Source: a virus
Length of the DNA: 22,148 nt
Reading direction: 5' to 3' (one strand)
Virus record (IMG/VR): IMGVR_UViG_3300009154_000310
Location: 1 to 22,148 of that record
The notes beneath the pieces are model-generated. The model saw only the letters and a program-made list of their open reading frames with translations. It did no database searches and was not told where the DNA came from. Every line of letters begins with the position of its first letter. Position 1 is the first letter of the stretch. Position numbers and translations under genes: made by a program. Below are positions 2,352 to 22,090 of the stretch, piece by piece.

Positions 2352-2544
2352 CGTTAGATTCCTTTAGTTTACGCACGAGGTCGCCGAGTTCACGTTGAGC
2401 GGTTCGGAGACCTCGGATGATTCCGCTCAACTCTTTGTAGTGATCGTAGGATGTAGCTCCACCATCACACAAAACTTGCACAATGCTTTTGACTTCTTCT
2501 TCAAATTTTTTATTGAGGATTTCAAGAATTTTTTCGTCCATCAT
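2344..2544 (-). CDS. Small helical protein after portal (66 aa)
   Basis: The protein is short, acidic/basic mixed and predicted all-helical. It opens with MMDEKILEILNKKFEEEVKS and closes with heptad-like repeats, LRTAQRELGDLVRKLKES, compatible with a short coiled coil. A single Cys-Asp-Gly-Gly turn separates the two helices. There is no membrane segment or nuclease motif. It starts in a TAATG overlap with the stop of the portal gene and runs 8 nt into the co-chaperonin gene, so it is clearly part of the head operon and probably translated by coupling. Small helical ORFs at this place in podovirus-like head operons often have no assigned function. It could be a minor head, assembly or chaperone-partner protein; I cannot tell which. 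Confidence 0.7.
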   Translation of the reverse strand: MMDEKILEILNKKFEEEVKSIVQVLCDGGATSYDHYKELSGIIRGLRTAQRELGDLVRKLKESNDD

Positions 2545-18123: not shown

Positions 18124-18560
18124 CACGCCCCATTTACGAGACGCCGGACGACCTTCACAATGAGGCTGATGTCCTGCGTCTCATCTCTAACTTATGGCCT
18201 TCTAAATTCCACAAGCTGCCCATTCGCTATCACCTTGATTACGCAGCCACCAAGGAAAACGGAGCAGTTGTAGCGTACTTGGAAATCAAAGTGCGTAAAC
18301 ACTCAATGGACCAGATCAACAGGTGGGGAGGCTACATGCTCAGCCTTGCCAAATTACAGACCGCTGAGTCACTGTGCCGGATCAGTAAAGCCGTCTTCGT
18401 CCTTGTCGTGAAGTGCCCCGAGGGTGTGTACTGGGCAAAGATCACTGACTTTACGCAATTCCCCGTAGTGATTGCCGGCCGGACAGATCGCGGGGACTCG
18501 CAGGACGTAGAGCCTTGCGTGATGATTCCTACGAAACTGTTTATTCCGTTAGCCAGCTAA
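18120..18560 (+). CDS. PD-(D/E)XK nuclease-like protein (146 aa), GTG start
   Basis: GTG at 18120 overlaps the previous stop (GTGA), and GAGG lies about 6 nt upstream. A PD-(D/E)XK core is visible: Glu15 in the first helix (HNEADVLRLI), Asp40 (RYHLDYAA), and Glu55-x-Lys57 in AYLEIKVRK. A long helix follows (MDQINRWGGYMLSLAKLQTA) and then VFVLVVKCPEGVYWAKI strands. Spacing between Asp40 and the ExK is 15 residues, normal for small endonuclease-like folds. A function as nuclease, nuclease-like anti-defence factor or recombination accessory is possible, but no target can be given. It is the last gene of the rightward operon before the gene-free island. Confidence 0.65.
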   Translation: MTRPIYETPDDLHNEADVLRLISNLWPSKFHKLPIRYHLDYAATKENGAVVAYLEIKVRKHSMDQINRWGGYMLSLAKLQTAESLCRISKAVFVLVVKCPEGVYWAKITDFTQFPVVIAGRTDRGDSQDVEPCVMIPTKLFIPLAS

Positions 18561-18854
18561 AAAAATTTCAGCGCAGCAGCCCCCAAGGGTGATAGCCACG
18601 GCTGTTCACTCACTGCCCAGAGGGCACACACAGCGCACTCCTAGCAAACCCATAAGGTAGCGATTCGTCGATAGGGCGTTTGTCTTCACCGCTTGCCGCC
18701 CAATCTTCCCCAGTCCCTCGCTAACAGGCTGGACGGCAGTTCATCTGGGGGTGTACCAGTGCCGGTGTTTACTTCCTCGCGGCCCATGCAGGCCCAGTGC
18801 TAACGTGAGGAGAACGGCTACTGTAGGGGTGGGGGTGGATACCCATAAACGAAA

Positions 18855-18963
18855 AGGCCGCTTACAACTGCGTCCGGTAGGAACCTTACCTAATAAATCC
18901 ACGACTCATCATTAGGTAAAGCGGAACGCATGTGTAAACGGCCTAACTCTCGTCGCTTCCTAC
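18855..18963. ncRNA. Three-tier stem with pseudoknot (part of the island)
   Basis: The outer stem is AGGCCGcTTACA (18855-18866) with TGTAAaCGGCCT (18933-18944), 11 of 12 pairs plus one G-U if on minus. The middle stem is TGCGTCCG (18869-18876) with CGGAACGCA (18922-18930), one bulge. The inner stem is TTACCTAAT (18886-18894) with ATTAGGTAA (18911-18919), perfect, loop 16 nt. The single strand between middle and inner stems, GTAGGAA (18877-18883), is complementary to TTCCTAC (18957-18963) outside the outer stem and so makes a pseudoknot. Four independent helices in 109 nt are not expected by chance. Confidence 0.7.
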
Positions 18964-18964
18964 G

Positions 18965-18999
18965 GCAACGGTTCCATTATAACCATACGGAATCGTTGC
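18965..18999 (+). other. 11-bp hairpin in the structured island
   Basis: GCAACGGTTCC (18965-18975) pairs with GGAATCGTTGC (18989-18999) around a 13-nt loop, with one G-U on the plus strand (which would be an A-C mismatch on minus). No T-run follows, so it is not a terminator. It directly abuts the pseudoknot arm at 18957-18963. Confidence 0.55.
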
Positions 19000-19015
19000 G
19001 TGTCAAGAAGTATTT

Positions 19016-19090
19016 TGGTTGCGGAGGCTGGATTCGCACCAGCGGTCTCTTGGTTATGAGCCAAGCGGATTCCTACTTTCCCACCCCGCG
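19016..19090 (-). tRNA. tRNA-Met(CAT), initiator-like, CCA encoded
   Basis: On the minus strand the 75-nt sequence begins CGCGGGGTGGG and ends CTCCGCAACCA. The acceptor stem leaves a C1-A72 mismatch, the hallmark of bacterial initiator tRNA, and the end CCGCAACCA equals that of E. coli tRNA-fMet. The anticodon stem-loop is CTTGG-CTCATAA-CCAAG with anticodon CAT. The T stem GCTGG/CCAGC is perfect. Oddities: only two of the three consecutive G-C pairs of initiators are kept next to the anticodon loop (the third is U-A), and the T loop reads TGCGAAT, so the nearly universal U55 is G. The D stem is short. It may be a functional variant, a decoy or a decaying copy. CCA is encoded. Confidence 0.8.
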
Positions 19091-19173
19091 ATAAAAGTTG
19101 TTGGCAACCGAGAATCCCCAGTCCGACACGACCCTAATAGCTATCGCCATCTGTCTTTGCTTAACCAACACGG

Positions 19174-19217
19174 CTGGGGACTAATCATGGATGAACCCAT
19201 ATAGTCGTCAATCCCCA
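19174..19217. other. Nested hairpin in the island
   Basis: GGGG (19176-19179) with CCCC (19213-19216), GACTA (19179-19183) with TAGTC (19202-19206) and ATGG (19187-19190) with CCAT (19197-19200) nest into one long imperfect hairpin. CTGGGGA (19174-19180) could instead pair with TCCCCAG (19115-19121), a 7-bp perfect alternative, so two mutually exclusive folds are possible. Confidence 0.45.
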
Positions 19218-19222
19218 TGCGT

Positions 19223-19301
19223 GTTAGTTGTTGGTGGCTCACATCAAGCAGTGTTTTTAAAACCAACTAACCGCAACGGCGCTAACCCGTTACACCACCA
19301 A
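19223..19301. ncRNA. H-type pseudoknot (part of the island)
   Basis: GTTAGTTG (19223-19230) pairs with CAACTAAC (19264-19271), 8 bp, and TTGGTGG (19231-19237) pairs with CCACCAA (19295-19301), 7 bp. Their order A-B-A'-B' makes a pseudoknot with the two helices contiguous on the 5' side. A further hairpin AACGG/CCGTT (19275-19291) lies within the last loop. The 7-bp closing stem gave a first impression of a tRNA, but no anticodon arm fits. Confidence 0.6.
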
Positions 19302-19378
19302 CACGGCTGAACCCGCTTGCATCACCGCGCCCAAGCAAAACTTAGGGACTCCGCAAAAAGGCTCATGCGTCTTGGTAG

Positions 19379-19406
19379 AAAAAACTCCCACGTCTGAGGT
19401 GGGAGT
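19379..19406 (-). terminator. Intrinsic terminator of the leftward nuclease gene
   Basis: On the minus strand ACTCCCAC (19406-19399) pairs with GTGGGAGT (19391-19384), 8 perfect bp with a 7-nt loop, followed directly by six T residues. It lies about 48 nt after the stop of the VRR-NUC-like gene. On the plus strand the hairpin is followed by AAAAC and would not terminate. Confidence 0.85.
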
Positions 19407-19453
19407 AAAACTCAACCGGAGTACCATGAAACAACCGAAGTTGCAGGGCAATC

Positions 19454-19844: not shown

Positions 19845-20105
19845 ATGAAGAAAGAAAATGTTAAGTCTTCTGAAGTTCAGCATGAGCCAGAAGTTTTGGA
19901 AAGGTCAAAGGTTCTTGCCGCTCATTTGGCTGAGCTGCTCTACGCCCAAGAAGAAACCACTCAGGAAAAGATCGTTGCTGCTGGAATTGTTTTTTCATCA
20001 ATGGCTGCTATGCACGGGGTGCCGCTACCTCACGCAATTAATTTATTGGTTGGCTGCTACGGGCTGGCTGATAATTTCTTTGAAACAGCGGGGCCAATGC
20101 AATGA
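19845..20105 (+). CDS. Hypothetical helical protein (86 aa)
   Basis: The ribosome site ACACAGGAGTTACC precedes the ATG. The protein has a charged start (MKKENVKSSEVQHEPEVLER), a helix SKVLAAHLAELLYAQEETT and a hydrophobic C-terminal half (IVAAGIVFSSMAAMHGVPLP then LLVGCYGLADNFFE) too polar in its middle for a confident membrane span. It joins the nuclease gene by an ATGA overlap, which suggests a linked function. The family is not recognised. Confidence 0.65.
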   Translation: MKKENVKSSEVQHEPEVLERSKVLAAHLAELLYAQEETTQEKIVAAGIVFSSMAAMHGVPLPHAINLLVGCYGLADNFFETAGPMQ

Positions 20106-20971
20106 AGTTGACCAACAACCTCGGCCTGCCTGACACCTTTGTCAACGCAATCTCCCGGCCCACCTACACCAAGGGTGACGCACAGATCAGCGCGACAGAG
20201 ATACTCAACAGCCCGCGTATCGTGCAGCTCAAGCGAAAGCATTGGGACGATCTTGAAGAAGACGCAGCCGATATGGTCTGGTCGCTCTTTGGCTCGGCCG
20301 TCCACGAAGTCTTGCAACACGGCAAGGACGACCACCACATCGTGGAGGAGCGCATCCACACCGAGTATCTGGGCTGGAAGATCAGTGGTGCAATCGACCT
20401 GCAAGAAGTTTATGAAGACGGCGTTGTCATCAGCGACTACAAGGTCACCAGCGCATGGGCCGTGATGAACGAAAAGGCTGATTGGCACAACCAGTTAAAC
20501 CTGTACGGCTGGCTTGTCGAGCGTGTCAAAAAGCAAAAGGTTAAATCTTTGCAGATCATCGCCATCGTTCGAGACTGGTCACGCCGCGATGCGGCCACAC
20601 GCGAGGGCTATCCCAAAGCGCCAGTGACTGTGATCGAGCTGCCATTGTGGTCATACGCTGACCGTGAAACGTATATCGCTAAACGTTTAACGCTGCACAA
20701 CGATGCGTTCTTTGCCGTACACACAGGGCACGGCATGCCTGAGTGCTCAGCCGAAGAGATGTGGGAGAAGCCCACCATGTACGCAGTGATGAAGGAAGGC
20801 GGCAAGCGCGCCAAGAGCGTTCACATTAACAAGGCAGAGGCTGAAGTGGCCATGCCTTCAACAGGGTACTTTATCGAGGTACGTGAGGGTGACAGGACTC
20901 GTTGCTCTGGCTTTTGTCAGGTCAACAAGCAATGTGACCAATATCAAAAATATCTTTTAACCAAGGAGTAA
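20102..20971 (+). CDS. RecB/Cas4-like PD-(D/E)XK exonuclease
   Basis: The RecB-type nuclease motifs occur in order in this 289-aa protein: His68 in LFGSAVHEVLQHG, Asp99 in SGAIDLQEV, Asp112-x-Lys114 in ISDYKVTS, and the Gln131/Tyr135 pair in WHNQLNLYGWLV (QxxxY). Near the C-terminus Cys268, Cys272 and Cys278 (CSGFCQVNKQC) resemble the late cysteines of Cas4/AddB-type proteins, which with one earlier Cys hold an Fe-S cluster. No earlier cysteine is obvious, so either three Cys plus another ligand or no cluster. The neighbouring ERF and SSB genes make it the likely exonuclease that produces single strands for annealing. No Cas genes or arrays are present, so it is not part of CRISPR adaptation here. 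Confidence 0.8.
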   Translation: MKLTNNLGLPDTFVNAISRPTYTKGDAQISATEILNSPRIVQLKRKHWDDLEEDAADMVWSLFGSAVHEVLQHGKDDHHIVEERIHTEYLGWKISGAIDLQEVYEDGVVISDYKVTSAWAVMNEKADWHNQLNLYGWLVERVKKQKVKSLQIIAIVRDWSRRDAATREGYPKAPVTVIELPLWSYADRETYIAKRLTLHNDAFFAVHTGHGMPECSAEEMWEKPTMYAVMKEGGKRAKSVHINKAEAEVAMPSTGYFIEVREGDRTRCSGFCQVNKQCDQYQKYLLTKE

Positions 20972-21209: not shown

Positions 21210-21407
21210 ATGCGGTTTAAAGAACACGTTACCAACTTTGACATTCAGCCCATCAGCAACAGTTTGATGCATGGTCCAATTACAGAAGAGATGATTGACT
21301 TCATCCTTCAACGTAACGACGAAAAGCGTGAGGCTTCGATTGCTTACCTCGGTGAGAAGTGGTTGCTGCATCCCAATAACAAAACACAACGCAAGGAAAT
21401 TCAATGA
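21210..21407 (+). CDS. Small hypothetical protein (65 aa)
   Basis: AAGGAA lies about 4-5 nt upstream of the ATG at 21210. The product is MRFKEHVTNFDIQPISNSLM, then EEMIDFILQRNDEKREASIA and a basic tail. It has no cysteine or membrane span. Its stop overlaps the ERF start by ATGA, so it is probably made together with the annealing protein. Confidence 0.6.
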   Translation: MRFKEHVTNFDIQPISNSLMHGPITEEMIDFILQRNDEKREASIAYLGEKWLLHPNNKTQRKEIQ

Positions 21408-22090
21408 CCGTTCACAAGAAACTGATGCAAGCTCGCGTCGAACTTCAAGGCATTCAGCTCAAGAAGTCTGGCCACAACAAGTTTGCAGGCTATAACTACT
21501 TTGAGCTGGGCGACTTCTTGCCCACTATCCAAATCATCTTTAACAGGATTGGCTTGTGCGGGGTAGTGTCTTACACCGCAGAGATGGCAACCCTGACAGT
21601 CGTGGACACCGAAGATGGCACGATCCTGCTCATTACTAGCCCGATGGCCGAAGCAAGCCTGAAGGGGGTTCACCCTATTCAGAATCTGGGTGCCGTGGAA
21701 ACCTACCAACGCCGCTACCTTTGGATGACCGCCCTTGAGATCGTAGAGCACGACGTGCTTGATTCCCAGACTCATGAGCCAGCCAAAGCAGCGCCAAAGT
21801 TGGTTTCTTTACCCGCCAAGGCACCGGTAGCCCCAAAGCAGATCGAGGGCAAGGAAGGCCCGTGGTATCTCAAAGTGACTACAGATCCAGAGGGAAACTT
21901 TGATGACTGGACTAATCTTGTGCAAGACGTTACGCAGATTGCCTTGGATCATGCCGAAAGCGAATCTGACGTAATGGCCATCTTCCGCAATAACAAGAAC
22001 ATATTTGACCAAGTCAAACAAAGCGCATCAGCTTACGAATCAATCTTGGCCATGTTTACCGTAGCTAAAAATCAATTTAAAAAGGACTAA
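21404..22090 (+). CDS. erf: ERF-family single-strand annealing protein
   Basis: The 228-aa protein has the ERF core in residues about 1-120: KLMQARVELQGIQLKKSGHN, the signature KFAGYNYFELGDFLPTIQ, a beta strand region, then GAVETYQRRYLWMTALEIVE with the T-Y-x-x-R-Y motif, and the following HDVLD. The C-terminal half is a Pro/Ala-rich linker with a short helical domain (VTQIALDHAESESDVMAIFR) similar in layout to the tail of P22 Erf. ERF proteins anneal single strands in phage recombination, with exonuclease and SSB as partners, both of which are adjacent. It starts in an ATGA overlap. The length agrees with the family (P22 Erf about 204 aa). Confidence 0.87.
   Translation: MTVHKKLMQARVELQGIQLKKSGHNKFAGYNYFELGDFLPTIQIIFNRIGLCGVVSYTAEMATLTVVDTEDGTILLITSPMAEASLKGVHPIQNLGAVETYQRRYLWMTALEIVEHDVLDSQTHEPAKAAPKLVSLPAKAPVAPKQIEGKEGPWYLKVTTDPEGNFDDWTNLVQDVTQIALDHAESESDVMAIFRNNKNIFDQVKQSASAYESILAMFTVAKNQFKKD

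Follow-up and report, generated by a model that had tools for sequence, protein, structure and literature searches.

A gene-free phage island with a minus-strand row of separate folded RNAs beside a tRNA, one of them a candidate mobile leader for larger RNAs

Among described RNAs, the closest to the locus presented here are the large RNAs of phages. GOLLD is an elaborate phage and prophage RNA from metagenomes, often near tRNA islands and once downstream of a Met-tRNA; it is a single long RNA, with many members above 800 nt and a 3′ region that is universally conserved (PMC12286853). ROOL is phage-encoded, has pseudoknots, and is found near tRNAs (PMC12286853). Of a different kind are the RNA anti-CRISPRs (Racrs), which are solitary CRISPR repeats (PMC10651486).

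The locus shares with GOLLD its place in a phage genome, its structured RNA, and an adjoining tRNA-Met; with ROOL it shares a phage-encoded origin, pseudoknots, and a tRNA neighborhood. It differs from GOLLD in having several small RNAs, of ~250 nt at most in the window (the whole stretch of DNA analyzed, a virus contig of 22,148 bases), and no single RNA of more than 800 nt. It differs from ROOL in that its units are much smaller and that one of them, B, has a separate promoter and U-run, and from both in its proposed layout of a leader plus interchangeable RNAs. A further feature of GOLLD and ROOL is a homo-oligomeric RNA nanocage. With Racrs the likeness is that of small autonomous non-coding RNAs as phage accessory genes, and the difference is that B has no repeat-like unit and has a conserved pseudoknot, the resemblance to CRISPR having been compared through Rfam only.

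Positions 18561-19371 are the sole stretch of at least 350 bp in the window without an ORF of at least 65 aa. A preliminary description had singled it out as the only long gene-free stretch, with a tRNA inside, and both points are borne out; the tRNA is a tRNA-Met (CAU) on the minus strand, 19090-19016. The same description took the stretch for a single giant RNA enclosing the tRNA. We find, with very little doubt, that the island instead strings together on the minus strand several distinct folded RNAs, none of them catalogued before, along with that one tRNA. The elements, in the order in which the minus strand reads them, are:

19379..19406, minus strand: E, an intrinsic terminator, ACTCCCACCTCAGACGTGGGAGT plus T6 (terminator scan)
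19298..19375, minus strand: C1, a degenerate copy of the handle stem with a 50-nt insert (sequence, direct repeats D2/D4, handle family)
19230..19302, minus strand: D, a tRNA-sized junction RNA (homologue covariation)
19165..19227, minus strand: C2, a handle stem with a 25-nt hairpin insert (handle family covariation)
19097..19169, minus strand: F, between C2 and the tRNA, a possible module with GUUGG/CCAAC as its closing stem (sequence only)
19016..19090, minus strand: tRNA-Met (CAU) (Rfam match)
18976..19006, minus strand: sigma70-type promoter of B, with TTGACA at 19006-19001, TATAAT at 18981-18976, and a spacer of 19
18852..18970, minus strand: B, a pseudoknotted RNA of ~120 nt (alignment, covariation)
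18822..18851, minus strand: linker behind the U-run of B (complementarity to the 5′ hairpin of B, family-wide)
18561..18821, minus strand: A, a structured RNA of ~240 nt with 10 helices (covariation in relatives)

As a comparison set we used 80 contigs with a relative of the exonuclease gene at 20102-20971, with which the island shares separate blocks (blastn and iterative nhmmer). On the minus-strand reading the order of the blocks is fixed: the E terminator, D and C, the tRNA, B, and A. Covariation among related phage contigs, whose absence the preliminary description had named as grounds for refutation, is present in all four structured elements (14 pairs in B, 33 in A, 11 in C, and 8 in D). 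The strand evidence, which had seemed to conflict, is settled by these alignments: in the minus-strand reading, every element has more G-U than A-C cells (B 104:2, A 100:4, C 64:6, D 38:2), thus the RNAs lie on the minus strand. One 0.8-kb island holds four covarying structured RNA families without an Rfam counterpart.

Folding energy follows the island only in places. There is an excess of folding at 18851-19000 on both strands (z = -5.4 on the plus strand and -5.6 on the minus strand), and at 19151-19300 on the minus strand only (z = -3.5); the other 150-nt windows of the island range from about -2 to +2.5. The dense complementarity reported earlier for the whole stretch holds in that many stems and one pseudoknot covary in relatives, while the folding excess is local only. 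The folding energy of A is mostly ordinary, so minimum free energy alone would miss it, and we dropped folding energy as a detector of the island RNAs.

Across its family, B measures ~90-125 nt. In the alignment, B sits at a fixed distance from a promoter and consists of a hairpin at the 5′ end, a long stem interrupted by a CA/GU internal loop, an inner hairpin, and a U-run. Over 84 sequences its 25 pairs are paired in 99.0% of cells and 14 of them covary; sliding the partners by 1-3 columns leaves a pairing of only 29-54%. In the window its main parts are:

18969-18965/18956-18952, minus strand: P1
18963-18957 with 18883-18877, minus strand: the pseudoknot, between a loop and a bulge strand
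18942-18933/18866-18857, minus strand: P2, with the conserved CA/GU internal loop

The pseudoknot between the P1 loop and the downstream strand has 7 of 7 positions paired in 121 of the 123 distinct RNAs, compared with 8.8% when partners are swapped, and 29 different loop sequences were seen. The pattern used to scan for B fixes parts of P1 and P2 but puts no constraint at all on the 3′ half, nor on the majority of loop positions, which keeps this test from being circular. Cutting the B units for the test did require a U-run, which is present too in an alignment that does not require one.

The −35 and −10 boxes match at 9 or more of 12 positions in 89 of the 123 B loci, versus 3.7% of random sites, and the −10 box keeps a fixed distance family-wide. 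The automatic promoter scan was limited to a spacer of 18, and so it missed the promoter of B with its spacer of 19. In the window the U-run is weak (TTTTCGTTT); most relatives have a strong terminator where B ends. B is a conserved pseudoknotted RNA that runs from a sigma70-type promoter to a stem and U-run, and its expression is predicted from the statistics of these two signals.

Element A consists of a conserved core (18819-18580) followed by a U-rich 3′ end. For 14 full-length relatives, RNAalifold proposes 47 pairs, 31 with double changes. Adding a pseudoknot between the loops AGCGA and UCGCU (UGCGU and ACGCA in contig L174) brings the structure to 52 pairs in the 14 sequences, 33 of them covarying and 96.1% paired, an absolute percentage that is optimistic given that the fold derives from the same alignment; the evidence is in the double changes. 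The slid controls are 28-48% paired. We observe that A (18721-18650) and D (19302-19230) have the loop motifs GUYAGCG and CUGCYUYAUG in common, which are mutually pairable (AGC/GCU), and A may hold a D-like core.

B and the DNA behind it are coupled by sequence. The 28 nt behind the U-run are complementary, family-wide, to the first 20 nt of B, and we call the resulting duplex P0. The mean duplex energy of linkers with their own B is -13.76, versus -11.61 ± 0.24 when permuted (0 of 5000 permutations, p<1/5000) and -11.89 ± 0.24 when permuted within the downstream family only. The signal stays significant when each loop class is represented by a single sequence (n = 29), and two controls, the next linker segment and another part of B, have no signal. 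In the window alone, P0 is a 10-bp match with one mismatch, no better than shuffles. Since P0 covers P1 and the pseudoknot loop, P0 is mutually exclusive with P1 plus the pseudoknot. That the linker lies beyond the U-run and yet co-evolves with B implies a role for the read-through RNA (or for the DNA). Pre-rRNA processing stems are long stems flanking an RNA unit, and P0 and the C handles resemble them in that respect; in contrast to them, P0 overlaps P1 and the pseudoknot, and nothing seen here points to RNase III cleavage.

A pattern scan locates B in at least 120 viral contigs, from phages mostly uncultured. Among the 120 B-contig matches listed, a relative of the exonuclease of the window turns up in only 10; a distant terminase gene is found in 27, as a rule no more than 450 nt away. 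By neighbor clustering there are at least four unrelated gene contexts: the window's own (nuclease, exonuclease, and ERF), a terminase pair, a replication initiator with a Cro-like regulator, and a group of small genes. B is present in 29 of 41 large phage records with one true site each, the few second rows repeating that site from the other strand, and at the threshold used it was not found in the other 12. In bacterial genomes we find B in 2 contigs only, of MAGs labeled beta proteobacterium and Comamonadaceae, for which the host assignment is weak. Both carry phage-like genes, thus B is no host gene in the sampled bacterial genomes. A packaging RNA of the phi29 pRNA type was considered for B and rejected, on account of the several gene contexts and the 12 of 41 large records without B.

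Nearly always, a larger structured RNA starts within tens of nucleotides behind B; in the window it is A. Strict clustering yields at least eight RNA families of at least three members behind B, which cover 111 of the ~120 units listed, and pairs with double changes occur in each of the eight downstream families with at least four members. Large examples measure ~650 nt (L035, L068, L015, L018) and ~400 nt (L005, L038, L039, L046, L050). Their consensus folds, which come from 4-5 sequences each, have energies of -122.8 and -111.6 kcal/mol, whereas shuffled columns reach -60 ± 6 and -61 ± 7; at that depth, counts of double changes do not decide the matter by themselves. At its own thresholds, Rfam gives no match for examples of either RNA. 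The distance from B to the next ORF at 75 aa (38% vs. 13% in the control) is too noisy to argue that the downstream DNA is non-coding.

The reading that we favor, with moderate confidence, is that B is a mobile leader before interchangeable large phage RNAs, and that C and D hold further exchangeable inserts. RNA polymerase would start at B. Some transcripts would end at the U-run and fold into P1, the pseudoknot, and P2, and others would read through into the large RNA, in which case pairing of the linker with the 5′ end of B (P0) would open P1 and the pseudoknot, cap the 5′ end, and keep B apart from the large RNA. Joint transcription of B and A is probable. The large RNAs would be interchangeable accessory RNAs that act in trans on the host (takeover or counter-defense) like phage "moron"-type genes; such a host-directed function, argued from mobility and autonomy alone, is plausible and somewhat doubtful. 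The C handles and D would carry more exchangeable RNA inserts next to the phage tRNA, and the ERF and exonuclease neighbors could drive, and so explain, the shuffling of modules via the repeated handles. Weighing against this reading are, in the window, the weak U-run and a P0 no stronger than shuffles, and in relatives such as L006 the occurrence of A without B, where a B-like RNA seems to stand in.

More tentatively, B may be a horizontally mobile header, set by many unrelated phages before interchangeable large RNAs, whose 5′ hairpin and pseudoknot form a two-state switch with the co-evolving anti-hairpin just past the terminator: in one state a small RNA would be released, in the other a large RNA would be produced or matured. 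If that were true, the header would be a general means of expressing and maturing large phage RNAs that have so far stayed hidden. B can serve as a search handle for the systematic discovery of large phage RNAs from the DNA behind it, and the leader-plus-RNA layout opens to testing what large phage RNAs do and how they are made, GOLLD and ROOL being still unexplained.

A related possibility, which we consider rather unlikely, is that B is a cis-acting leader that governs how the long untranslated RNA following it is transcribed, either as a conditional terminator or as a polymerase modifier similar to HK022 put. The put RNA is a structured phage leader that acts in antitermination at the start of a transcript. 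Compared by description, both are structured RNAs with which a phage transcript opens; B differs in its terminal U-run, in its loop-bulge pseudoknot, and in that untranslated RNAs, not protein operons, follow it. That B lies at +1 with varied long untranslated RNAs nearly always close behind is what a cis-acting leader would predict. However, P0 forms only past the U-run and hence cannot control termination there, and we found no alternative anti-terminator within B and no put-like structure.

It is unlikely that B is an independent, trans-acting small RNA, with the downstream RNAs present because the site is a hot spot for insertion of RNA genes. Its own promoter and U-run, the single copy per genome, and the horizontal spread all fit such an RNA, and the strong terminator that ends B in most relatives speaks for B acting alone and against the leader reading. 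But a downstream RNA accompanies B too regularly for that, and the complementarity of linker and B ties both together. An antisense small RNA in particular was rejected, as B has no conserved single-stranded seed for pairing.

The C handle has a constant stem of 17 bp, in which a tandem mismatch (CA facing GC or GU) hardly ever varies, and encloses inserts that range between 4 and 111 nt. Its arms are 94.4% paired, and 11 of the 17 pairs covary (122 distinct units in the loci). In C2 the pairing is CUAACACG-CA-UGGGGAUUG with UAGUCCCCA-GC-CGUGUUGG; C1 has the 5′ arm CCAAGACGCATGAGCC (19375-19360) and the 3′ arm CAGCCGTGTTGG (19309-19298). D has a covarying closing stem, GUUGGUGG/CCACCAAC, a variable arm, and two hairpins with invariant loops, one with the loop GUUAGCG and the other CAC-UGCUUNAU-GUG; among 37 distinct homologues, 97.7% of cells are paired and 8 of 14 pairs covary. 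In L196 and L152, D sits within a C handle. For the 3′ arms of the handles (GUGUUGGU) two partners are available, the 5′ arm of the same handle and the module that comes next (CCACCAAC), and alternative pairings therefore exist.

Two observations concern the handles. P2 of B (18942-18857) and the C2 handle (19227-19165) have the same tandem mismatch, CAUG opposite CAGY, possibly a common protein site or processing signal. In L052 (3743-3894), L059 (2432-2585), and L074 (1302-1452), the insert within the C handles measures 111 nt and has a T arm like that of a tRNA (GGGUUCAAAUCCC); in L052 and L059 ARAGORN calls no tRNA for it.

We consider it improbable that the C handles act as folded DNA, in the manner of integron attC recombination hairpins, shuffling RNA cassettes with the RNA form incidental. 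In favor, their inverted repeats are imperfect, contain an unpaired spacer, and surround inserts that vary from 4 to 111 nt, pieces of the island are gained and lost independently, and ERF and exonuclease genes are near. The attC R box reads RYYYAAC/GTTRRRY, however, a consensus that the handle 3′ end GTTGGTG by inspection does not meet; there is no tyrosine recombinase or integrase among the window proteins searched, and A, B, and D would be left unexplained.

One giant ornate RNA of the GOLLD or ROOL kind enclosing the tRNA is very improbable, even if size, the gene-free stretch, and the nearby tRNA would all suit it. Contig L005, with an exonuclease 99% identical, has B, D, C, and E, and contig L006 (92%) has A, a tRNA-Asn, a tRNA-Pro, D, and C. 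This independent gain and loss of pieces in close relatives, together with the promoter and U-run of B, indicates that the island is not one RNA; as the promoter of B comes after the tRNA and starts a new transcript, the tRNA is not enclosed. The covariance models of Rfam, including those for GOLLD and ROOL, report on both strands of the whole window (cmscan, E ≤ 5) only the tRNA, and a search of 18540-19420 at E ≤ 10 adds sub-threshold, chance-level matches to unrelated families. We therefore reject membership in GOLLD (no covariance-model match, independent pieces, an internal promoter) and in ROOL (no covariance-model match, nor one for the larger RNAs of relatives); what remains of the earlier assignment is an undescribed structured phage RNA beside a tRNA.

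Decayed or overlooked protein genes can practically be dismissed: the island does contain ORFs of 53-61 aa, but no reading frame is open in all homologues, and there are compensatory base pairs and no codon signal.

Nucleotide relatives of the island in isolated phages are matches to the tRNA only. We found no description of these RNAs in the literature, in a search with thin coverage of subscription papers. No described RNA family or arrangement compared here accounts for the island, which, within that incomplete literature coverage, we rate as new in kind.

The window is probably part of a phage genome of ~60 kb. Its phage genes include a large terminase, portal, primase, helicase, ERF recombinase, and exonuclease. 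In its terminase it comes closest, among isolates, to DSL-LC04, from a lake in China (54.6%), to the pelagiphages HTVC027P (52%) and HTVC023P (49%), and to Synechococcus phage MinM2 (47%); the genomes of these isolates measure 57-65 kb. DSL-LC04 and the names of the MAGs that contain B suggest a lake as the source. None of the island RNAs were seen in the stretches read of DSL-LC04, HTVC027P, HTVC023P, and MinM2, and the B model gave nothing convincing there. The island adjoins a PD-(D/E)XK exonuclease (20102-20971, plus strand) and an ERF single-strand annealing protein (21404-22090, plus strand). At the other border, E terminates the upstream minus-strand nuclease-like gene (19825-19454), marks the 5′ border of the cluster, and is kept in ~20-25 loci. 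The tRNA-Met has relatives in 7-12 loci. In the Rfam alignment it has a C1xA72 mismatch atop the acceptor stem (19016-19090), as in initiator tRNAs; an initiator tRNA in a phage would be unusual.

Two contigs present minor observations around the position of B. Just upstream of B in L049 (2365-2443, minus strand) there is a sub-threshold Rfam match to the Burkholderia sRNA ncS16 (26.8 bits, gathering 48, E 0.0087). In L006, where A is present and B absent, a divergent B-like RNA seems to replace B: at the position of B (2400-2520, minus strand) we find a TTGACA/TATAAT promoter, loop pairing of GUGAGAG with CUCUCAC, and a stem GCCGUUAAG/CUUAACGGC with T6. Behind it lies a module with CUUGAUGAUGGUG/CACCAUCAUCAAG as its closing stem, followed by A. 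Possibly, B represents a single branch within a wider superfamily.
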